Below are positions 1,666-12,579 of a stretch of 64,000 nt of DNA, one piece after another. The notes under the pieces were generated by a model, which did no database searches, had not been told where the DNA came from, and saw nothing but the letters and a program-made list of their open reading frames with translations. The position numbers and the translations under genes were made by a program. Source of the stretch: Burkholderiales bacterium Ga0077547 (lineage in GTDB: Bacteria > Pseudomonadota > Gammaproteobacteria > Burkholderiales > Burkholderiaceae_C); the NCBI GenBank assembly GCA_001464195.1, contig LNEY01000028.1, positions 69,865 through 133,864 on the forward strand, in the 5' to 3' direction. How positions within the stretch are numbered: position 1 is the stretch's first letter; every line of letters begins with the position of its first letter.

Positions 1666-3105
1666 GTGAGCCTCGGACCCTGGCTGCGCGAAGGCGCACG
1701 CACGCTTTGCTTCAAGCCGCCGCGCATCGCGGCGCTGCACGCCCGCCCGAGCATCTTGGTGATGCTTCTGGCGCTGATGCTGGGCATTGTCATCGGCGTA
1801 CAGCGCCTGTCGATCGACGGGCCTGCCCAGTTCGATCTCACCGCGATCCACAGTGGCTGGCTGGCGTCGTTGCTGGCGCTCTGTGCCTGCTGGATCGTGG
1901 TGCGTGGCCGCGAGGCGTCCGGTGCGCCGCCGGATGCTCCTTCTGTCGCAACGTTGTTCGCGCTGCTGCTGGCGCAGCAACTGCTGTTGTCGGCGCTGCT
2001 CGGCTTGCTCTATGTCTCGGTCGTGTTCTGGGTGCCGATGTCGACGTCCGTCGACATCGATGCGCTGCTGGGCAACGTGTGGCTGGCAGCACTGCTGTGG
2101 TTCGTGCTGGCGGCGCTGGTGCTCTTGTGGCGAGAGGCGCCGCGGCGCCTCTCGCCCCGCGCAGCGATCGTCGTCTATGGGGTTCTCAGCGTCGTTCTCC
2201 AGGTGACCACCCACGAAGCGCGCTTCTGGACAGCCCACGCGGCTTCATCTGCTGACGCCTTCGTGGGTGGCGATGGCTCACGCATCGACGGGGAGCCCAG
2301 CACCGCTCCACTGGCGCTGAGCCAGGAACTGATGGAGTCCCAGGCCCGCACCTTGCCCGCCGCACTTGACGGGCTGACCCCTGGCCGCCCGGGTGTTGTC
2401 GAGTTGTATGCAATCACCTTCGCACCGTATGCCGACGAAGACGTGTTCAGCCGCGAGGCCACGCTGGTGTCCGACCTGATGCGCAGCCGCTTCGACGCGC
2501 AGCAGCGCGTCGTGCAGCTGCAGAACCATGCGCGCAGCGTCGCCGAGCTGCCCTGGGCCACGCCGTTGAATCTTCAACGCGCCATTCAACGCATGGCCGC
2601 GGTGATGAACCGTGACGAAGACATCCTGTTCATCCACCTCACCTCGCATGGTGCACGCGATGGTCAACTGGCCGCCAGCTTCGAGCCGCTCGCGGTCGAC
2701 TCGGTCACACCACAGCAGCTGAGCGTCTGGCTCGATGAGGCTGGCGTGCGCTACCGGGTGCTGTCGGTCTCCGCCTGCTACTCGGGCTCGTGGATCACGC
2801 CGCTGTCCGGCCCGGGCACATTGGTGATGACAGCCGCCGACGCAGACCACACCTCTTATGGCTGTGGCAGCCTGTCGGAGCTGACCTTCTTCGGCCGTGC
2901 GATGTACGACGAGCAACTGCGCAACAACACCCATTCGTTCGAAGCCGCCCATGCTGCCGTGCGTCCGGTGATTGAGCAGCGCGAAAAGGACGCAGGCAAG
3001 ACCGACGGTTACTCCAACCCGCAAATCGCGATAGGCGACGCCATTCGCGGGCCGCTGCGCAGCCTGCAGCAGCGGCTGGAAGTGATGCATTCGGCGCCGC
3101 ACTAG
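1666..3105 (+). CDS. Membrane-anchored C13 (legumain-like) peptidase
   Basis: This is a 479-residue protein. Its N-terminal 190 or so residues contain several hydrophobic segments (near residues 25-45, 60-75, 85-125 and 140-180), so it is likely an inner-membrane protein. The C-terminal half resembles Peptidase_C13: a hydrophobic strand leads to the catalytic dyad His in TSHGARDG (about H328) and Cys in SVSACYSGSW (about C371), as in caspase/legumain-fold enzymes. The start is a GTG at 1666, 39 bases after the DUF4399 gene. The substrate is unknown; GPI-transamidase-like or self-cleaving activity would be speculation. The family call rests on the dyad spacing and surrounding hydrophobic strands. 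Confidence 0.8.
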   Translation: MSLGPWLREGARTLCFKPPRIAALHARPSILVMLLALMLGIVIGVQRLSIDGPAQFDLTAIHSGWLASLLALCACWIVVRGREASGAPPDAPSVATLFALLLAQQLLLSALLGLLYVSVVFWVPMSTSVDIDALLGNVWLAALLWFVLAALVLLWREAPRRLSPRAAIVVYGVLSVVLQVTTHEARFWTAHAASSADAFVGGDGSRIDGEPSTAPLALSQELMESQARTLPAALDGLTPGRPGVVELYAITFAPYADEDVFSREATLVSDLMRSRFDAQQRVVQLQNHARSVAELPWATPLNLQRAIQRMAAVMNRDEDILFIHLTSHGARDGQLAASFEPLAVDSVTPQQLSVWLDEAGVRYRVLSVSACYSGSWITPLSGPGTLVMTAADADHTSYGCGSLSELTFFGRAMYDEQLRNNTHSFEAAHAAVRPVIEQREKDAGKTDGYSNPQIAIGDAIRGPLRSLQQRLEVMHSAPH

Positions 3106-4213: not shown

Positions 4214-5089
4214 ATGAAATGGGAAGGCAATCGGCAGAGTGACAACGTCGAGGATGCGCGCTCCGGTGGCCGAGGCGTCCGCATGGGCGGTGGGCGCGGC
4301 ATCGGCCTCGGAACCATCGTCATCGCGCTGTTGGGCGGATGGATCTTCGGCATCAATCCGCTGACCATCCTGGGCGTGCTCGACGGCGGCTCGGGCGGTC
4401 TGGCGCCACAGGTTCAGCAGGCCCCGGCGACCAGGCCGCCGGCCGATGACCAGCAGGCCGCGTTCGTCGCCACGGTGCTGGCCGACACCGAAGAGGTGTG
4501 GAGGGCCCAGTTCGCGCTGGCTGGTTCGGCCTACGAAGAGCCGAAACTGCGGCTTTTCCGCGGGCAAGAGCCTACGGCCTGTGGGCAGGGCGATGCCGCC
4601 ATGGGACCGTTCTACTGCCCTGGCGACCGCAAGGTCTACATCGACCTGGGCTTCTTCGACACCATGGCGCAGCGCATGGGCGCTCCGGGCGATTTCGCGC
4701 AGGCCTACGTGATTGCCCACGAGGTGGGCCACCACGTGCAGAACCTGCTGGGAATCACCGACAAGGTCGATGCGATGCGCGGGCGCATCAGCGAGGCAGA
4801 ACAAAACGCGATGAGCGTGCGCCTGGAACTGCAGGCGGACTGTTTTGCCGGCGTGTGGGCGCACGACTCGCAAAAGAGCAAGGGCTGGCTGGAAAGTGGT
4901 GACGTGGAAGAGGCGCTGAACGCCGCCACGCAGATCGGCGACGACACCCTGCAACGCCAGTCACGCGGCACCGTGGTGCCTGAGAGCTTCACCCATGGCA
5001 CCAGCGCTCAGCGCGTCAAATGGTTCCAGCGCGGGCTGCAGGGCGGCAGTTTGCAGAAGTGCAATACGTTCGGTAAGACGCCGTTGTAG
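4214..5089 (+). CDS. ypfJ: YpfJ-family neutral zinc metallopeptidase
   Basis: This is a 291-residue protein of the YpfJ (KPN_00711) neutral zinc metallopeptidase family. The N-terminus is Gly/Arg-rich, followed by one membrane anchor at about residues 32-52 (IGLGTIVIALLGGWIFG), so the catalytic domain probably faces the periplasm. The zinc motif HEVGHH is at about 169-174. The conserved CGQGDAAMGPFYCPGD and QADCFAGVW motifs follow the family pattern. The ATG at 4214 has AAGGGG six bases upstream, which decides against an earlier in-frame ATG at 4184. Its true substrate is not known. Confidence 0.9.
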   Translation: MKWEGNRQSDNVEDARSGGRGVRMGGGRGIGLGTIVIALLGGWIFGINPLTILGVLDGGSGGLAPQVQQAPATRPPADDQQAAFVATVLADTEEVWRAQFALAGSAYEEPKLRLFRGQEPTACGQGDAAMGPFYCPGDRKVYIDLGFFDTMAQRMGAPGDFAQAYVIAHEVGHHVQNLLGITDKVDAMRGRISEAEQNAMSVRLELQADCFAGVWAHDSQKSKGWLESGDVEEALNAATQIGDDTLQRQSRGTVVPESFTHGTSAQRVKWFQRGLQGGSLQKCNTFGKTPL

Positions 5090-5290
5090 GCGGGTCGGAG
5101 CGGACTGAGGGCTCCGTGTGTGGGAGCTAGCCGCATCGACGGCGAGTACAGCTTTGAGCGTAGCCTGCACAGACCGAAAGCCCGGGCATTTGCCGCCAAA
5201 CCCGTTGACCGGTGTCGACCCAAAGCGTGAGCCGAGAATACGCGACAGCGGGCCGCTTTCTCGGACGGCCAAGCCTTCAACGGTGCTATC

Positions 5291-5530
5291 TTGAACGGTT
5301 CCCAGCAACAAGGAGTACCAAGGAATGGCGCGGACCCCAAGAACCACGGCAAGCCGTGGACGGACGCTGAGCTGCAAAAGCTGCGTGAACTCGCGCAGGG
5401 CAACACGCCGATGCGCGTGATCGGCCTCAAGACCGGACGGACGCCGGCGGCAGTGCAGCAGAAGGCTAGCAGCGAGAACAACTCGCTCAAACCGATCAAC
5501 CAGCGCCTCCACGGCACGAAGAAGAAGTAG
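5291..5530 (+). CDS. Small DNA-binding-like protein, start region damaged
   Basis: This frame encodes up to 79 residues; the conserved-looking part begins at PKNHGKPWT and contains LRELAQGNTPMRVIGLKTGRTPAAVQ, which reads like a small helix-turn-helix. From memory this matches a widespread 60-70-residue family of unknown function. The only start in frame is TTG at 5291 with no ribosome site. A good site and ATG lie at 5311-5327 but in another frame, which would stop after 31 codons at 5420. Removing two bases after that ATG would give Met-Ala-Asp-Pro-Lys-Asn-His, so the gene probably suffered a 2-base insertion or sequence error. The TTG start is given only as the frame's first codon. Confidence 0.55.
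   Translation: MNGSQQQGVPRNGADPKNHGKPWTDAELQKLRELAQGNTPMRVIGLKTGRTPAAVQQKASSENNSLKPINQRLHGTKKK
5311..5327 (+). promoter_or_regulatory. Ribosome binding site and ATG out of frame with its gene
   Basis: AGGAG at 5311-5315 is followed by an ATG at 5325-5327 with a nine-base gap, an ideal translation start. The frame it opens ends at 5420 after 31 codons with no protein-like content, while the recognisable small protein continues in a different frame. This is the main evidence for a frameshift at the start of that gene. Confidence 0.6.
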
Positions 5531-5593
5531 GCACCGGAGCGTCAGCGGCGCACGGCCGCGGCGCTTCGGTCACAAGACTCTGGGGAGGGACGA

Positions 5594-7543
5594 ATGATCC
5601 TGCCGGACAACGAGACCAAGGTCGATTTGCTGAACAACGAGGCCATCGCCAACACCATCATCGGTCTGTTGCGCGAGCGCCCGGACACCCCGGTGACGAT
5701 TGGCGTGCATGGCGACTGGGGCGCCGGCAAGTCCAGCGTCCTGGAGATGATCGCCGCCCGGCTCGACAATGAGGACAAGGTCCTCTGTCTTAAGTTCAAT
5801 GGCTGGCGGTTTCAGGGCTTCGAGGACGCCAAGATCGCGCTCATCGAAGGTATCGTCAACGGTCTGCTGGATAAGCGGCCGATGCTGAACAAGGCGACGG
5901 GCGCGCTCAAGGATGTCGTCAAGAGCATCGACCTGCTGAAGGTTGCGAAGAAGGCCGGCGGGCTCGCCTGGACAGCGTTCACCGGCATCCCGACTGCCGA
6001 TCAAATCTCGGGGATCATCAAGACGCTGCAGGATGTGATTGCCGATCCGGCGGCGCTGGCGACGAAAGAAAACATCGGCCAGGCCATCGACGCCATGCAG
6101 TCAGTCATGAAGCCGACTGAATCGAAGAGCGTGCCGCGGGAGATCGAGGCCTTCCGCGAGGCCTTCGACCAGTTGCTCAAGGAAGCGGGGATCGATCAGT
6201 TGATCGTGCTGATCGACGACCTCGACCGCTGCCTGCCGGACACGGCCATCGAGACGCTGGAAGCCATCCGTCTGCTGGTATTCACGTCGCGTACCGCGTT
6301 CGTCGTCGCCGCCGATGAGGCGATGGTCGAGTATGCGGTTCGCAAGCACTTTCCCGATTTGCCCGAGACGACCGGTCCACGCGACTACGCGCGCAACTAT
6401 CTGGAGAAGCTGATCCAGGTGCCCTTCCGCATCCCAGCCTTGGGCGAAACCGAAACGCGCATCTACGTCACGCTGCTGCTGGCCGGCGCCGAACTGGGCG
6501 AGGACGACAAAGGCTTCGGCAAACTGATCGCCGCAGCACGCGAGCGGCTGAAGCGGCCCTGGGAAAGCGCGGCGCTCGATGGCGAGGCGGTCAAGCAAGC
6601 CCTGGGCGAGCAGGCGGCGAAGACGCACAACGCGCTGCTACTCAGCGATCAGATCGGTCCCATCCTGGCAAGCGGCGCCAAGGGCAACCCGCGCCAAATC
6701 AAGCGCTTCCTGAATACGCTGTTGCTGCGCGAACGGACCGCCACGGCGCGCGGTTTCGGCGACGACATCAAGTTGCCGGTCCTAGCGAAGCTGATGCTGC
6801 TGGAGCGCTTCACGCCACGCTTGTTCGACCAGATCGCATCGACCGCCGCCGCGCATTCCAAGGGGCTCTGCGACGACGTTGCCAAACTGGAAGTCTTCGC
6901 GACCGCAGCAGCGGCTGGAATGGAGAAGAGCGCCGAGCCCAAGGCTGCCAAGTCGGCAGAGGTAGCCAGCCCGCCTGCGGAAGAGTCCGTTGCGCTGCAG
7001 GAGTGGAAAGCGACGGAGACTATGTGTTCATGGGCGCGGGTGCTGCCTGCCATCGGCGGCCTCGATCTGCGGCCCTATCTCTTCGTCACGAAGGACAAGA
7101 AGGACTTCTTCGGTCCGACCTCGGCATTGGGGCACCTGGCCGCAGTGGCCGACAAGCTCTTCGGCTCGAAGTTGTTCGTGCAGGGCTATCTGGACGAACT
7201 CCGACAGTTGAAGGCCGCCGAAGCCGACAAGGTGTTCGAGGCGGTCCGCGGCCGGATCATCGGCGCCGCCGTGTTCGACACGCTGCCCGATGGCATCCAC
7301 GGTCTTCGCGTCTTGGTACAGGCTCAGCCCCTGCTGCAAGGTCGGCTCATTGACTTCCTCGAGTCACTCCCCAAGGCACGCTGCGGCCCATGGGTTACCG
7401 GCGGCTGGCAAGGAGTCATTGTCGAAGCGACCAGCACGGCGCGCTTCGACGCCCTGCTCGAAGAGTGGAGCAAGGTGAGCGACAACGCGACGTTAAAGGC
7501 CGCGGCGCAGGCCGTCCTGCCGCAGCCGAAGGGGAAGAGCTAA
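5594..7543 (+). CDS. qatA: QatA, KAP-family P-loop ATPase of Qat defence system
   Basis: This is a 649-residue KAP-family NTPase. Walker A is GDWGAGKS at residues 40-47 and Walker B is in LIVLIDDLDRC at about 203-213; KAP proteins commonly have the Asp-Asp-Leu-Asp-Arg sequence here. A further strand, FVVAADE, follows near 238. The C-terminal part is helical and of unknown role. GGAGG lies just before the ATG. It is followed at once by qatB, qatC and qatD in the order of the described Qat anti-phage system (ATPase, QatB, QueC-like, TatD-like), so I call it QatA. In that system the ATPase is thought to be needed for defence, though its mechanism is not established. Confidence 0.9.
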   Translation: MILPDNETKVDLLNNEAIANTIIGLLRERPDTPVTIGVHGDWGAGKSSVLEMIAARLDNEDKVLCLKFNGWRFQGFEDAKIALIEGIVNGLLDKRPMLNKATGALKDVVKSIDLLKVAKKAGGLAWTAFTGIPTADQISGIIKTLQDVIADPAALATKENIGQAIDAMQSVMKPTESKSVPREIEAFREAFDQLLKEAGIDQLIVLIDDLDRCLPDTAIETLEAIRLLVFTSRTAFVVAADEAMVEYAVRKHFPDLPETTGPRDYARNYLEKLIQVPFRIPALGETETRIYVTLLLAGAELGEDDKGFGKLIAAARERLKRPWESAALDGEAVKQALGEQAAKTHNALLLSDQIGPILASGAKGNPRQIKRFLNTLLLRERTATARGFGDDIKLPVLAKLMLLERFTPRLFDQIASTAAAHSKGLCDDVAKLEVFATAAAAGMEKSAEPKAAKSAEVASPPAEESVALQEWKATETMCSWARVLPAIGGLDLRPYLFVTKDKKDFFGPTSALGHLAAVADKLFGSKLFVQGYLDELRQLKAAEADKVFEAVRGRIIGAAVFDTLPDGIHGLRVLVQAQPLLQGRLIDFLESLPKARCGPWVTGGWQGVIVEATSTARFDALLEEWSKVSDNATLKAAAQAVLPQPKGKS

Positions 7544-8443
7544 ATGGGCACCTCAACGGCCTATGGCGGTCCTTCCGGCCGCGATCCGCTGGTTCCGTCC
7601 TGGCTCGGGTCTGACGGCGGCGGCGCGCCCCCTGGTGGCCCGCCTGCCGTACCACCTGACGATCAGGGACAGCCAGCCGACCCGGACGGTGCTCCGCCAC
7701 CCCAGGCTGCGCCACAGGCCCCGCCGAGGCAGCCGATCCCGCCTGCCGCCAATCCCAATCGCTACGCCGGGCCGCGCGGCAACTTCACCCGCTTCGCGCG
7801 ATCGGGCGGCAGCGATCGCGCCAGCCTCGGCCGTGCGGTTTCGCAGTACGTCTCTTCATCAGCTGGCGGCTCCCGTCAGGCCGCGCAACGCATGGGGACA
7901 TCGCGCGCAGCCGGCGCACGCCTAGTCAGTTTCCTGAGCGATGCTCAGACGCGCGGCCCGCGGGAAGCCCTGAGGACACTAAACCTCGAAGCGCTGGCCG
8001 GCCGCCCGCTCCCCGAAATCCTCATCGGGTTGGCCGACCATGTCTGTCCCGGCGCCGGGACAGTAGACGAGGGGATCGCCCGCGAAGCTTATGTCGAGAC
8101 CATTGTCGAACTGACCACGTCGGGGATCACGGAGCTTGATGCGCTTTCCCCGGATCAGATGCTGACGGTCTTCGAGATGTACGCGACGCATGCCATCGAA
8201 GCACGCATCTGTAACGACATCGGCCTCAAGGCCATCACCATGCCCAGCGACGCACAGGCAGCGCTGCGGGTCGAGGCGCAACTACGTGACTTCGTCAGGA
8301 ACGGCGTGAGCGATGCCTTGGCGAATGCGCGGGCCGGCGGCGCGGTGATGGCCTCGGATCGCATCCAGGGCTTCGTGGATCAGGTCTACGAAGACGCTTT
8401 CCGGTTCTTGCATGCCCGCGGCGAAGCGGAGGGGGACCAATGA
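7544..8443 (+). CDS. qatB: QatB of Qat defence system
   Basis: This is a 299-residue protein that starts directly after the qatA stop codon, which suggests translational coupling. The N-terminal MGTSTAYGGPSGRDPLVPSW is followed by a Pro/Gly/Ala-rich low-complexity stretch to about residue 75. A helical domain then runs to the C-terminus. This opening sequence and layout match what I remember of QatB-type proteins. QatB has no known enzymatic motif, and its biochemical role is unknown to me. Its position between the KAP ATPase and the QueC-like gene is the strongest support. The stop overlaps the qatC start in ATGA. Confidence 0.85.
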   Translation: MGTSTAYGGPSGRDPLVPSWLGSDGGGAPPGGPPAVPPDDQGQPADPDGAPPPQAAPQAPPRQPIPPAANPNRYAGPRGNFTRFARSGGSDRASLGRAVSQYVSSSAGGSRQAAQRMGTSRAAGARLVSFLSDAQTRGPREALRTLNLEALAGRPLPEILIGLADHVCPGAGTVDEGIAREAYVETIVELTTSGITELDALSPDQMLTVFEMYATHAIEARICNDIGLKAITMPSDAQAALRVEAQLRDFVRNGVSDALANARAGGAVMASDRIQGFVDQVYEDAFRFLHARGEAEGDQ

Positions 8444-9816
8444 AAAGGCACGTCCTTGCCGGCCGCTATGGCCCCGACGACCAACTGGTCATCCCCTTCA
8501 ACCCGGAAGAGCAGTTGACCAACCTGCAGTTGGTGGCCGGCGAGCGCAGGCTTGACCACGGCGTCGGAGCTGCGCTGACCAGCCTCAAAGCCCTCGGGGT
8601 CCGCCCGACCGAAATAGGCATCGACCTGGCCGTCGTCGCAGCCCACGTCCACGCTGCCGATACGCGCATCTCGCGTGCGGACGAGTCGCAGGATTCATGG
8701 ACGCGCGAGATCAGGCTGGTGATCCCTGTCCACGATCCGCAGCGCTGGTCGGCCGCCACGCCCACACTGACCACGCTGCTCAACTTTCTGACAGGCGACC
8801 GCTGGACGCTGCAGTTCCGGCCACGGCCGGAGCGTTTCGCCACCATCGCCGAGGCGAACACGGCGTCGCTCCTACAACCTCTCTTCACGGCGCTGAGCTT
8901 GTTCTCCGGAGGGCTGGACAGCCTTATCGGCGCCATCGACCTGCTTGAGGCCGGCGAGGAACCGCTGTTTGTGAGCCACTGGGGCGAGAGCTCTGTGAGC
9001 GATGCGCAGAACAAGCTATTCAGCGACCTCAAGAAGCGCTACCCGAAGCGGCCCTTCGACCGGGTCCGGGTCCGCATGGCGTTTCCCAAAGGGCTGGTCA
9101 AGGATGTGAAATCTGAGAACAGCACGCGCGGCCGATCTTTCCTGTTCATAGCGCTGGGTGCGCTGGCGGGGACCGGGCTTGGCGACAACTTCACGCTGCG
9201 GATTCCCGAAAACGGCTTCATCGCATTGAACGTGCCGCTCGACCCGCTGCGCCTCGGGTCCAACAGCACGCGCACGACGCACCCGTTCTACCTGGCCCGA
9301 TGGAACGACCTGCTCGCCGAACTCGGTGTCGCCGGCCGCGTCGAGAACCCCTACTGGCGTCAGACAAAAGGGGAAATGGCCGCCGCCTGTGCGAACGATG
9401 AGGCGCTGCGCGCGCTGGCGCCGGAATCCCTCTCTTGCGCCCATCCGTCCAGTGCACGATGGTTGGGCCTCCAAGGCAAGAGCACCGAGCATTGCGGCCA
9501 CTGCCTGCCCTGCCTCATCCGCCGCGCCGCGCTCAACCACGCCTGGGGCAAGGGTGTGGATCAGACCTCGTACACCCAAGCAGACCTGCACGCGCACGTC
9601 CTCGATACGGCGCAAGCCACGGGGCAGCAGGTGCGCTCGTTCCAGTACGCCATCGCCAGACTGGAATCGCACCCGGAGATCGCCAGCATCCTCGTACACA
9701 AGCCGGGGTCACTGGCGGACGTGGCGGGCGAGGTTGAGCCATGGACCGGCGTCTATCGCCGCGGTCTCGATGAAGTCGGCGCCCTCATCGACGGCGTGCG
9801 AACGGGCCCGAGCTGA
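8440..9816 (+). CDS. qatC: QatC, QueC-like protein of Qat defence system
   Basis: This is a 458-residue protein. An N-terminal domain of about 150 residues precedes a PP-loop ATP-pyrophosphatase domain with FSGGLDS at about 155-161. A Cys cluster, Cys333 with Cys352, Cys355 and Cys358 (HCGHCLPC), matches the zinc site of QueC, the 7-cyano-7-deazaguanine synthase. Both the nucleotide and zinc sites look intact. The extra N-terminal domain distinguishes it from housekeeping QueC (about 220-240 aa). No other queuosine genes are nearby, so a defence role within Qat is preferred. The chemistry carried out by QatC is not settled, as far as I know. It starts in a 4-base overlap with qatB. Confidence 0.9.
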   Translation: MKRHVLAGRYGPDDQLVIPFNPEEQLTNLQLVAGERRLDHGVGAALTSLKALGVRPTEIGIDLAVVAAHVHAADTRISRADESQDSWTREIRLVIPVHDPQRWSAATPTLTTLLNFLTGDRWTLQFRPRPERFATIAEANTASLLQPLFTALSLFSGGLDSLIGAIDLLEAGEEPLFVSHWGESSVSDAQNKLFSDLKKRYPKRPFDRVRVRMAFPKGLVKDVKSENSTRGRSFLFIALGALAGTGLGDNFTLRIPENGFIALNVPLDPLRLGSNSTRTTHPFYLARWNDLLAELGVAGRVENPYWRQTKGEMAAACANDEALRALAPESLSCAHPSSARWLGLQGKSTEHCGHCLPCLIRRAALNHAWGKGVDQTSYTQADLHAHVLDTAQATGQQVRSFQYAIARLESHPEIASILVHKPGSLADVAGEVEPWTGVYRRGLDEVGALIDGVRTGPS

Positions 9817-9829
9817 GCGCGGTTTGCAC

Positions 9830-10594
9830 ATGATCCCGACGAACGGCCTCATCGATTTCCACTGTCACCTGGACCTCTATCCCGACCACGCCGCCGCGGT
9901 GCGCGAGGCCGAGGCGGCTGGCGTATTCACGCTCGCGGTGACGACAACACCGAAAGCTTGGTTGCGGAACCATGAACTGACGCGCGATACGCGCCACGTC
10001 CGTGCCGCCCTGGGGCTGCACCCGCAGCTGGTTAGCAGCCGCGCGGACGAGATTGCGCTTTGGGAAACTCTGCTGCCGCAAACACGCTATGTCGGCGAGG
10101 TGGGCCTTGACGCCGGGCCGCGCTTCTACAAGTCGCTGGACCAGCAGAAGGATGTCTTCGCCCGCGTGCTACGAGCGTGCGCCAGGGCGGGCGGCAAGAT
10201 CATCACGGTCCACAGCGTCCGTACCGCCAAGGCCGTCCTTGATCACATCGAAGAGCACCTGCCGCAACGAACCAACCGCGTCGTGTTGCACTGGTTTACC
10301 GGATCCAAATCCGAAGCCGCGCGTGCGCTCGACATGGGCTGCTACTTTTCGATCAACGCCACGATGTTGAACAACGAGAAGGCGGCAGCTCTGGTGAGGT
10401 CACTCCCAGTTGGTCGAATCCTCACGGAGACGGACGGTCCATTCACCGAAGTTGATGGCCGGCCGTCGAAACCGATTGACGTGGCTGACACGGTACAAGC
10501 CCTTGCGAAACTGCTCGAATTCCCGGCAACGAGCCTAGCAAACGCGATGAGAGATAACCTTCGTCAAGTCCTCCAAGGCACAGACCTGCGATGA
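9830..10594 (+). CDS. qatD: QatD, TatD-like metal-dependent nuclease of Qat system
   Basis: This is a 254-residue TatD-family hydrolase, probably a metal-dependent DNase. The expected metal ligands are all visible: HCH at residues 11-13, Glu in VGEVGLD (about 90), His in TVHS (about 128), His in LHWFTG (about 154) and Asp in ETDGPF (about 202). The ATG at 9830 lies 13 bases after the qatC stop. The frame stays open upstream into qatC, but the protein similarity begins only at MIPTNGLIDFHCH. It closes the qatABCD operon. Length agrees with TatD proteins. Confidence 0.9.
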   Translation: MIPTNGLIDFHCHLDLYPDHAAAVREAEAAGVFTLAVTTTPKAWLRNHELTRDTRHVRAALGLHPQLVSSRADEIALWETLLPQTRYVGEVGLDAGPRFYKSLDQQKDVFARVLRACARAGGKIITVHSVRTAKAVLDHIEEHLPQRTNRVVLHWFTGSKSEAARALDMGCYFSINATMLNNEKAAALVRSLPVGRILTETDGPFTEVDGRPSKPIDVADTVQALAKLLEFPATSLANAMRDNLRQVLQGTDLR

Positions 10595-11130
10595 GGCGGC
10601 CGGAATCAATTAAGCGGCCGGAGTTGGCGTAGCCACGGCCGTCGCGACGGCAGAACTGCTGCGGGAGCCGTAGTTGTCAAGTGGATATCTTGCGGCCGGC
10701 TCAGATGTTAAGTGACCGCTGTGCGTTAACCACAGAAATGTCTGCATTTGGACTAATTCAGCCATTTCCTCGGTCACGCTACCCGTATCTGCGTGGCTGC
10801 GCAAAGCCACTGTCCCCAACTTGCTTTGTGGGACTCTTTCGGTGCCCACGGCGGCGATGCTGCTGATTCGTCGCCTCGGCGTCATTGGCTACTCTGACCT
10901 CGACGATCTTGTCGAGAAGCTGACGAAGGGGGCCGATGACGCCCGAAATACAGATCAACCGCATTGCCGCCGTGGTGCGGTCGAGATGGGCGCCGCTACG
11001 GGCTGATGCGCGAATTCCATTGATGGCAAACCCACATGGCACCGCCTGCGGTGGCTGGTCAAAATCCCGGCGCAGTGCACACCATTTGTGCGCTGGATTT
11101 GAAGGCGAGGACGCGCCGGAGGAAGTACCC
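10595..11130. other. Gene-free stretch beside the Qat operon, possible mobile-element relic
   Basis: No convincing gene is present in these 536 bases. Three copies of the octamer GCGGCCGG occur at 10596-10603, 10614-10621 and 10692-10699, the first two 18 bases apart. The segment 10675-10760 looks more AT-rich than its surroundings and unlike the neighbouring genes. Short frames on either strand (for example near 10821-11006) show no recognisable domain. Repeated short motifs at an end are typical of IS21-type elements, but no terminal inverted repeat or transposase remnant could be demonstrated, so the relic idea is inference. Confidence 0.4.
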
Positions 11131-11424
11131 ATGTCAACCATCACCACCGAACAGCTGCTGGCCGCTCGCATCGACGAGTTGCGCCATTGCACCTGGAACG
11201 ACAGCCGGCACATCTGCGTGCAGATCCAGGACGACGCCCCGGGCAAAACCTGGCTGCTGCTGGACGAACACACTTACGCCACGGTGTATGACGGCAAGCA
11301 GGGCCTGTGTGTGTTGTCGTTCTTCCACGACGAGGAGGCCAGCATCGTGTTCGGCGACCACGCCGAGGCGGTGCTGGACGGCTACGAAGTGCCGGTCGAT
11401 GCGCTGCGCGAGGTGGTGGGCTGA
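11131..11424 (+). CDS. Hypothetical protein (97 aa)
   Basis: I do not recognise this 97-residue acidic protein. There is no signal peptide or membrane segment. It has alternating strands (HICVQIQD, TWLLLDEHTYATVYD, LCVLSFFHDEE, ASIVFG) that suggest a small alpha/beta fold. The ATG at 11131 has GGAGGAA at 11118-11124, an excellent ribosome site, and codon use is like the core genome. It lies at the right-hand edge of the accessory island and is convergent with the lldD-like gene, ten bases away. Confidence 0.65.
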   Translation: MSTITTEQLLAARIDELRHCTWNDSRHICVQIQDDAPGKTWLLLDEHTYATVYDGKQGLCVLSFFHDEEASIVFGDHAEAVLDGYEVPVDALREVVG

Positions 11425-11433
11425 CGCCCTGAA

Positions 11434-12579
11434 TCAGTAGGTGCCGGGCAGCAGGATGTCTCGGCCCACTGTGCGCAGGTCGGTGTGTCCGCAGAACGCC
11501 ATCGTCAGGTCGAGCTCGTTGCGGATGATCTCCAGGCAGCGCGTCACGCCGGCCTCGCCCATCGCACCCAGGCCATAAAGAAAGCTGCGGCCGATCAGCG
11601 TGCCGCGTGCGCCCAGCGCCCAGGCCTTCAGCACATCCTGCCCGCTGCGGATGCCGCCGTCCATCCACACCTCGATGCGATGACCCACCGCATCAGCAAT
11701 CGTGGGCAGCGCGGCAATGGACGATGGCGCGCCATCGAGCTGGCGGCCGCCGTGGTTCGACACGATCAGCGCATCGGCGCCGCTGTCGGCCGCCAGGCGC
11801 GCATCTTCGGCGTCCATGATGCCCTTGAGGATCAGCTTGCCACCCCAGCGTTTCTTGACCCATTCGACATCGGCCCAGCTGAGTGCCGGATCGAACTGCT
11901 CGGCCGTCCAGGAGCTCAGCGACGACAGATCACCCACGCCCTGCGCATGGCCGACGATGTTGCCAAAGGTGCGTCGCTTCGTGCCCAGCATGCCCAGGCA
12001 CCAGCGCGGTTTGGTGGCGAGGTTGATCAGGTTGGCGATGGTGGGCTTGGGTGGGGCGCTCAGGCCGTTGTGGATGTCCTTGTGGCGCTGGCCCAGCACC
12101 TGCAGATCGAGTGTGAGCATCAGCGCGCTGCAGTTCGCGGCCCGTGCGCGTTCAATCAGCCGCTCGATGAAGCCGCGGTCCTTCATCACATACAACTGAA
12201 ACCAGAACGGCGCGGTGGTGTGTGCGGCGATGTCCTCGATCGAGCAGATGCTCATCGTGCTCAACGTGAACGGAACGCCAAATTTCTCGGCCGCGCGTGC
12301 CGCGAGGATTTCGCCGTCGGCATGCTGCATGCCGGTCATGCCGGTCGGCGCGATGGCGACAGGCATGGCGGCGTCGATGCCGATCATCTGCACCCGGGTG
12401 CTGCGCTTGGCGATGTCGACGGCCACGCGCTGCCGCAGCTGGATGCGCTGAAAGTCAGCCTCGTTGGCGCGATAGGTGCCTTCGGTCCACGAGCCTGAAT
12501 CGGCGTAGTCGTAGAACATCCGCGGCACCCGCTTCTTGGCGAGGTGGCGCAGTTCTTCGATGTGGGTGATGGGTGGCAT
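11434..12579 (-). CDS. lldD: FMN-dependent 2-hydroxyacid dehydrogenase, L-lactate dehydrogenase type
   Basis: This is a 381-residue member of the FMN-dependent alpha-hydroxy acid oxidase family, which oxidises L-lactate or related 2-hydroxy acids with electrons usually passed to the respiratory chain. The opening PRMFYDYADSGSWTEGTYR, IAPTGMTGMQH, and the catalytic SNHGGRQLDGAPS (His at about 276) and phosphate-binding DGGIRSGQDVLKA regions are all present. I use the ATG at 12579; a GTG four codons earlier is possible. L-lactate is the most likely substrate, but mandelate or glycolate types cannot be separated by eye. It lies on the same strand downstream of the exported haemoglobin, 68 bases away. 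Confidence 0.85.
   Translation of the reverse strand: MPPITHIEELRHLAKKRVPRMFYDYADSGSWTEGTYRANEADFQRIQLRQRVAVDIAKRSTRVQMIGIDAAMPVAIAPTGMTGMQHADGEILAARAAEKFGVPFTLSTMSICSIEDIAAHTTAPFWFQLYVMKDRGFIERLIERARAANCSALMLTLDLQVLGQRHKDIHNGLSAPPKPTIANLINLATKPRWCLGMLGTKRRTFGNIVGHAQGVGDLSSLSSWTAEQFDPALSWADVEWVKKRWGGKLILKGIMDAEDARLAADSGADALIVSNHGGRQLDGAPSSIAALPTIADAVGHRIEVWMDGGIRSGQDVLKAWALGARGTLIGRSFLYGLGAMGEAGVTRCLEIIRNELDLTMAFCGHTDLRTVGRDILLPGTY

Follow-up and report, generated by a model that had tools for sequence, protein, structure and literature searches.

The stretch of DNA analysed here (the window, 64,000 nucleotides of contig LNEY01000028.1 of Burkholderiales bacterium Ga0077547) very probably carries, at positions 5594-10594, a complete and apparently intact QatABCD operon, predicted to protect against phages and located in a variable chromosomal slot. 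The Qat system is already known and this locus adds one further Qat operon. Its own interest is low to moderate, but that of a question to which it leads is higher, namely what the QueC-like enzyme QatC attaches to its putative protein substrate QatB. A comparison of biosynthetic genes across QatC-carrying genomes bears on this question and suggests that QatC, the central enzyme, may work with a molecule other than the one proposed for it, 7-carboxy-7-deazaguanine (CDG).

The genes qatA, qatB, qatC and qatD are adjacent open reading frames, in this order and on the same (forward) strand. The TAA stop codon of qatA (7541-7543) abuts the qatB ATG at 7544, the stop of qatB falls within the start of qatC in a 4-nucleotide overlap (ATGA, 8440-8443), and a 13-nucleotide spacer (9817-9829) separates qatC from qatD. 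This is the four-gene arrangement described in the initial annotation, including the contact or overlap at the first two junctions and the gap at the third. Its assignment to the Qat defence system is also borne out, as all four proteins exceed the cut-offs of curated NCBIfam equivalog families and match the PADLOC Qat models, far above chance (Table 1). A Pfam scan identified the KAP NTPase domain in QatA and the TatD nuclease domain in QatD, and no family in QatB.

Table 1. Genes of the predicted Qat operon and the accessory segment that contains it (window coordinates; aa, amino acids).
Feature	Position	Strand	Evidence
qatA, KAP-family NTPase	5594..7543	+	649 aa; PADLOC QatA E 0, 1013 bits; NCBIfam NF041923 901.7 bits (cut-off 600); Pfam KAP_NTPase
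qatB, putative protein substrate, N-terminal MGTS	7544..8443	+	299 aa; PADLOC QatB 4.1e-130; NF041924 236.4 bits (cut-off 100)
qatC, QueC-like enzyme	8440..9816	+	458 aa; PADLOC QatC 2.7e-202; NF041925 535.5 bits (cut-off 280)
qatD, TatD-family nuclease	9830..10594	+	254 aa; PADLOC QatD 1.4e-122; NF041926 351.8 bits (cut-off 230); Pfam TatD_DNase
accessory segment with operon	5158..11102		same-genus DNA similarity (blastn) ends at 5072-5157, depending on the genome, and resumes at 11103; both sides seen in G103 and G252

The catalytic motifs that the annotation had named are all present: GDWGAGKS and DDLDR in QatA, SGGLDS and CGHCLPC in QatC, and the HCH, E, H, H, D series in QatD. As a reference for the remaining functional residues we have used the solved QatB and QatC structures. 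QatC aligned over residues 1-457 of its 458 with 9vlk (425 bits) and over 1-455 with 9zee (397 bits), and QatB over residues 1-291 and 1-294 of its 299 with the two solved QatB chains (9zee_A and 9vll_A). We have taken 9zee/9zef as the Pseudomonas aeruginosa QatBC of Gao et al. (2026, PMC13279940) because the residues named in the main text of that paper fit, with 18/18 QatC and 11/11 QatB letters agreeing in 9zee. The window QatC retains S156, D160 and S161, the adenosine-contacting R232 and F236, the threonine pair T277/T279 and the cysteines 333, 352, 355 and 358 (the threonines are T278/T280 in P. aeruginosa, while S156 and S161 carry the same numbers in both). QatB retains the MGTS start with G2, as well as P18 and W20, which correspond to G2, P16 and W18 of P. 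aeruginosa.

These residues are conserved among the relatives of the operon, for which we have selected the best 80 of at least 559 loci by QatC similarity, plus loci from the family. The counts describe the clade of the window operon and not all Qat systems, and include some duplicates (L032 and L065 belong to one genome). Where the starts of both QatB and QatC could be read (78 loci), the QatC active-site, threonine-pair and zinc-cysteine letters are identical in 77 (L071 is gapped there), G2 and the tail proline of QatB are kept in all 78 and the tail tryptophan in 77. Of the readable QatB starts, 70/80 read MGTS and 10/80 have a GTG start codon followed by GTS. Across the 76 relatives aligned, QatA shows no variation in its nucleotide-binding motifs (Walker A GDWGAGKS and DDLDR), nor does QatD, across 83, in its HCH, E, H, H and D residues. 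All four genes are matched in the same order in 75 of the 80 related loci, some of the matches being partial (e.g. L066, L087, L093); the other five (L072, L086, L107, L123, L125) are found at the end of a contig or on one shorter than 6 kb.

Comparison with sister genomes, which the initial annotation had proposed, indicates that the operon is probably an accessory insert beside ypfJ. Similarity to same-genus DNA is interrupted from 5072-5157 to 11103, and this segment of about 5.9 kb, operon included, is therefore accessory in the host. Its genome (2.84 Mb in 33 contigs, 88% complete) contains a single match to the QatC model, the window qatC itself. In the family the presence of QatC is patchy, with matches in 18 of 250 genomes (nine above the cut-off, the host counted) and none in G103 and G202, the two same-genus genomes among these 250. 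The gene ypfJ was found in 10 of 15 same-genus genomes, and the 97-aa gene beginning at window position 11131 likewise lies behind ypfJ in two of the eight same-genus stretches fetched, at about 150 bp in G103 and after about 2 kb of other cargo in G252. It was not found on the other six stretches, some of which end soon past ypfJ. The slot looks variable because G252 holds a different cargo there; this cargo (L044:4718-6752) encodes an Ada-type methyltransferase/regulator and a protein matching 'Oxygenase-NA' (damaged DNA; 2-oxoglutarate oxygenase).

Some observations weigh against an intact operon inserted in a variable slot. Neither an integrase nor a transfer gene was recognised next to it, and the G+C content of 5001-11000 (0.605-0.677) resembles that of the flanks, which is uninformative either way on foreign origin. 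A simple promoter scan of 5050-11150 returned no sigma-70-like site, which is weak evidence. Finally, a charged patch between QatB and QatC in P. aeruginosa (R410/H413/R414 of QatC, D181/E182 of QatB) reads S/E/I and T/T in the window, the QatB positions being 191/192. Most of the clade resembles the window here, with L or I at QatC 414 in 72/78 loci and A, T or S at QatB 181 in 76/78, while R407 of QatC (75/78) and an acidic residue at QatB 179 (76/78) are kept and are both present in the window. Since both partners have changed, these two-sided replacements would fit a contact that has been re-packed, not broken.

What is known about the way Qat works comes from the operons of P. aeruginosa and, in part, Escherichia coli. 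According to the main text of Gao et al. (PMC13279940), QatB and QatC form a complex that is the core of the system and is sufficient against lambda-vir, Gly2 of QatB and the active-site residues of QatC are essential, QatA binds DNA, and QatA and QatD influence the range of phages. The initial annotation had asked how QatC and QatD cooperate. The chemistry of QatC is indeed still described as unresolved in that text, whereas the idea of a QatC-QatD partnership has been superseded by that of a QatBC core, with QatA and QatD shaping the phage range. The P. aeruginosa QatABCD and the second QatBC of known structure (9vlk/9vll) share with the window the four genes and their order, the MGTS tail of QatB, and the ATP site, threonine pair and zinc cysteines of QatC; they differ in the part of the charged contact that is replaced in the window, as in most of the clade sampled. 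Because the required parts are present, the same mechanism would be expected for the window copy, which is presumably expressed and active: QatC would carry out an N-terminal conjugation, and the DNA-binding KAP NTPase QatA and the TatD-type nuclease QatD would widen or tune the range of phages.

A known system with a similar logic is the type IV cyclic oligonucleotide-based antiphage signalling system (CBASS), in which a QueC-family enzyme also acts on a partner with an essential N-terminal glycine (available text of PMC11996544; PMC13279940). The difference, as given in the main text of PMC13279940, is that the Tyr/Asp with which Cap9 and QueC read CDG are Thr/Thr in QatC, which in addition carries extra terminal domains compared with Cap9; CDG was not seen in the crystals. 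The locus itself was rejected as a type IV CBASS, as PADLOC found no CBASS core gene (CD-NTase, Cap9/Cap10) among nine proteins, the four of Qat and five neighbours.

A way to approach the substrate of QatC is to ask whether the genomes that carry it can make CDG, the product of QueD and QueE (available text of Libby et al. 2026, PMC13329287). Our sample comprised 47 genome handles for 46 distinct genomes, since G222 and G266 denote the same one: the host, four handles from the family search and the genomes behind 42 of the 80 loci, with preference given to named strains. QueE was searched with TIGR03365 (E 1e-8), TIGR04322 (1e-5) and our own profile A2 (1e-5), QueD with TIGR03367 (1e-8), QueC with TIGR00364 (1e-15) and the tRNA-guanine transglycosylase Tgt with TIGR00430. 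TIGR04349 (1e-3) was run on 43 of the 47 handles, with G011, G134, G196 and G222 (by that handle) outside. Profile A2, of 11 rows, was built since the host QueE matches the TIGR models weakly (9.9e-12 with TIGR04349, 9.2e-13 with TIGR04322, and not at 1e-8 with TIGR03365). It matched 20 of the 47 handles at E 4e-95 or better, including the 11 row donors that match by construction, and nine weakly (3e-6 to 2e-11), leaving 18 with no match.

Tgt was above the cut-off in 47/47 handles. In contrast, QueC, QueD and QueE were all unrecognisable, at the thresholds used, in 10 of the 46 distinct genomes (G134, G272, G275, G276, G283, G286, G295, G297, G298 and G301), which are also all the genomes without QueC. 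Five of them are named strains (Rhizobium sp. 18065, Pannonibacter carbonis, Mesorhizobium ephedrae, Aquamicrobium defluvii and Azospirillum sp. B4), and G134 is listed as 100% complete. TIGR04349, run on nine of the ten, gave no match in G275, G298 and G301 and weak ones in G272 (7.7e-4), G276 (2.5e-4), G295 (1.1e-4), G286 (7.8e-5), G283 (2.9e-6) and G297 (4.6e-8), the last being the least sure of the ten. In the QatC of all ten genomes SGGLDS, the STRT threonines and the zinc pattern are intact, and eight have a readable MGTS QatB; the QatB starts of L107 and L093 are unreadable, and QatA was not seen on L107, a short contig.

Other genomes run against a simple story and have been left out of this count. 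G011, G196, G222/G266 and G273 have a canonical QueC without QueD, and G288 and G302 have QueC with a weak QueD (5.3e-11 and 1.1e-15), all of them without QueE by A2, TIGR03365 and TIGR04322. Divergent QueD or QueE proteins that escape the models may account for these cases. TIGR04349 did match in G273 (4.7e-10) and G288 (7.6e-11), but both alignments begin inside the model (positions 24 and 18), and the proteins hit may belong to other radical-SAM enzymes.

Two readings of the QatC reaction have to be weighed against these data. The available text of PMC13329287 reports that QatC does not replace E. coli QueC and proposes outright that QatB is carboxydeazaguanylated, that is, that QatC would conjugate CDG to Gly2 of QatB exactly as the CD-NTase is modified by Cap9 in type IV CBASS. 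The host of the window could make CDG, having queC, queD-like (57.4 bits, under the family cut-off) and queE-like genes within 2.5 kb on another contig (C5:60690-63139), with tgt on C32. Against the proposal stand the Thr/Thr replacement and the crystals without CDG, and now the ten genomes in which, if their Qat systems work, QatC is therefore not using host-made CDG, a result that fits the remark in PMC13279940 on the replaced CDG-reading residues. The comparison has to be read with the caveats that the genomes are drafts, the enzymes may be divergent, CDG might be taken up and the Qat copies might be non-working there. On balance we consider the transfer of CDG possible but rather doubtful, and lean slightly towards QatC carrying out a protein modification not yet described; qatBC carriers with intact motifs and seemingly no CDG pathway point to something other than deazaguanylation. 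A literature search, with supplements and most subscription journals outside its scope, found no report of a QueC/QueD/QueE test in QatC genomes: neither 'queE' nor 'queD' occurs in the main text of PMC13279940, and the passages naming them in the available text of PMC13329287 concern the pathway and canonical QueC. The wide comparison of genomes made here renders the substrate question directly testable.

It has also to be considered that QatA and QatD are the effectors, phage sensing by QatBC unleashing the QatD nuclease on QatA-bound DNA. The invariance of the catalytic residues in both proteins and the DNA binding of QatA speak for such a role, but according to the main text of PMC13279940 QatBC alone gives full protection against lambda-vir, and cells did not become fully susceptible when QatA or QatD was lost or mutated, making this role unlikely. 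A more trivial reading is that housekeeping queC and tatD genes lie side by side by chance, and the initial annotation had seen failing QatB and QatC models, together with a grouping of the genes with housekeeping queC/tatD, as fatal to the Qat call. QatD does match Pfam TatD_DNase, and Pfam QueC is found in QatC below threshold (20.7 bits, cut-off 22). Nevertheless, the QatB and QatC models both match, the NCBIfam equivalogs are those of QatC and QatD, QatC draws no TIGR00364 match at E up to 0.01, and QatD scores 132.2 on TIGR00010, under its cut-off of 206. Moreover, a canonical queC (TIGR00364 above cut-off) is found on C5, separate from the contig of qatC, which is thus not the housekeeping copy. 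We have rejected a chance pairing, which is extremely improbable.

Similar operons are found in other bacteria, with the same A-B-C-D order and short junctions. Those of Janthinobacterium, Rhodoferax, Acidovorax and Stenotrophomonas encode a QatC 68-70% identical to that of the window, and in Delftia, where the operons lie on plasmids, QatB is 65.6% identical. The window QatB was matched by 46 of 72,556 plasmid records, one of them a predicted conjugative plasmid of Delftia. Some relatives thus differ from the window operon in their setting, the latter lying on a chromosomal-type contig beside ypfJ. Records of Luteimonas aestuarii and Roseateles aquatilis (L102/L103) share a 12.6-kb qat stretch at 99.9% identity, and a Stenotrophomonas record shares 10-kb stretches at 100% identity with two records of metagenome-assembled genomes (L056/L057/L058); transfer or assembly contamination could be the cause.

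The search for QatC relatives also returned proteins outside such operons. On L040 (4016-7719, G132) and L039 (4957-8079, G053), both from family genomes, QatC-like proteins of 455 and 499 aa (PADLOC QatC, 114.9 and 128.6 bits) adjoin a gene for a helix-turn-helix plus IrrE/M78 protease protein and a small gene of 190 or 184 aa, respectively. These 13-kb stretches gave no match to QatA, QatB or QatD and possibly hold a different QueC-like defence cassette. L038 (5050-7945) encodes a 704-aa QatC-like protein (194.4 bits) with SGGLDS and TRTTHP, directly behind a 263-aa gene whose protein starts with MG, and has no matches to QatA, QatB or QatD; similar long frames occur in L011 and L012. Among solved structures, PDB 3gg7 ('uncharacterized metalloprotein') matches the annotated qatD of Deinococcus radiodurans pCP1 (L146:6925-7659) over all 244 residues bar the first, and appears to be a QatD structure without such a label in the chain table.

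An edge of a mobile element was sought around the operon and none was found: the window contains no tRNA, 4900-11500 matched no Rfam family, neither 5090-5600 nor 10595-11140 matched a plasmid, 10595-11102 occurs once in the genome, and the repeats in 5080-11150 are all short or weak. The roughly 0.5 kb after qatD (10595-11102) has no recognised gene and contains an imperfect inverted repeat (10846-10889/10932-10975, 73%); it could be a decayed element. Between ypfJ and qatA there is a 79-aa frame (5291-5530) with no family match above cut-off and distant relatives in five plasmid records; searches of Qat loci and of same-genus stretches did not find it. PADLOC on the five neighbour proteins gave a sole match, of ypfJ to capP (13.8 bits), and none for two further window proteins. 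Two genes upstream of the ypfJ neighbourhood, 1666-3105 encodes a 479-aa protein with a Peptidase_C13 (legumain-like) domain.

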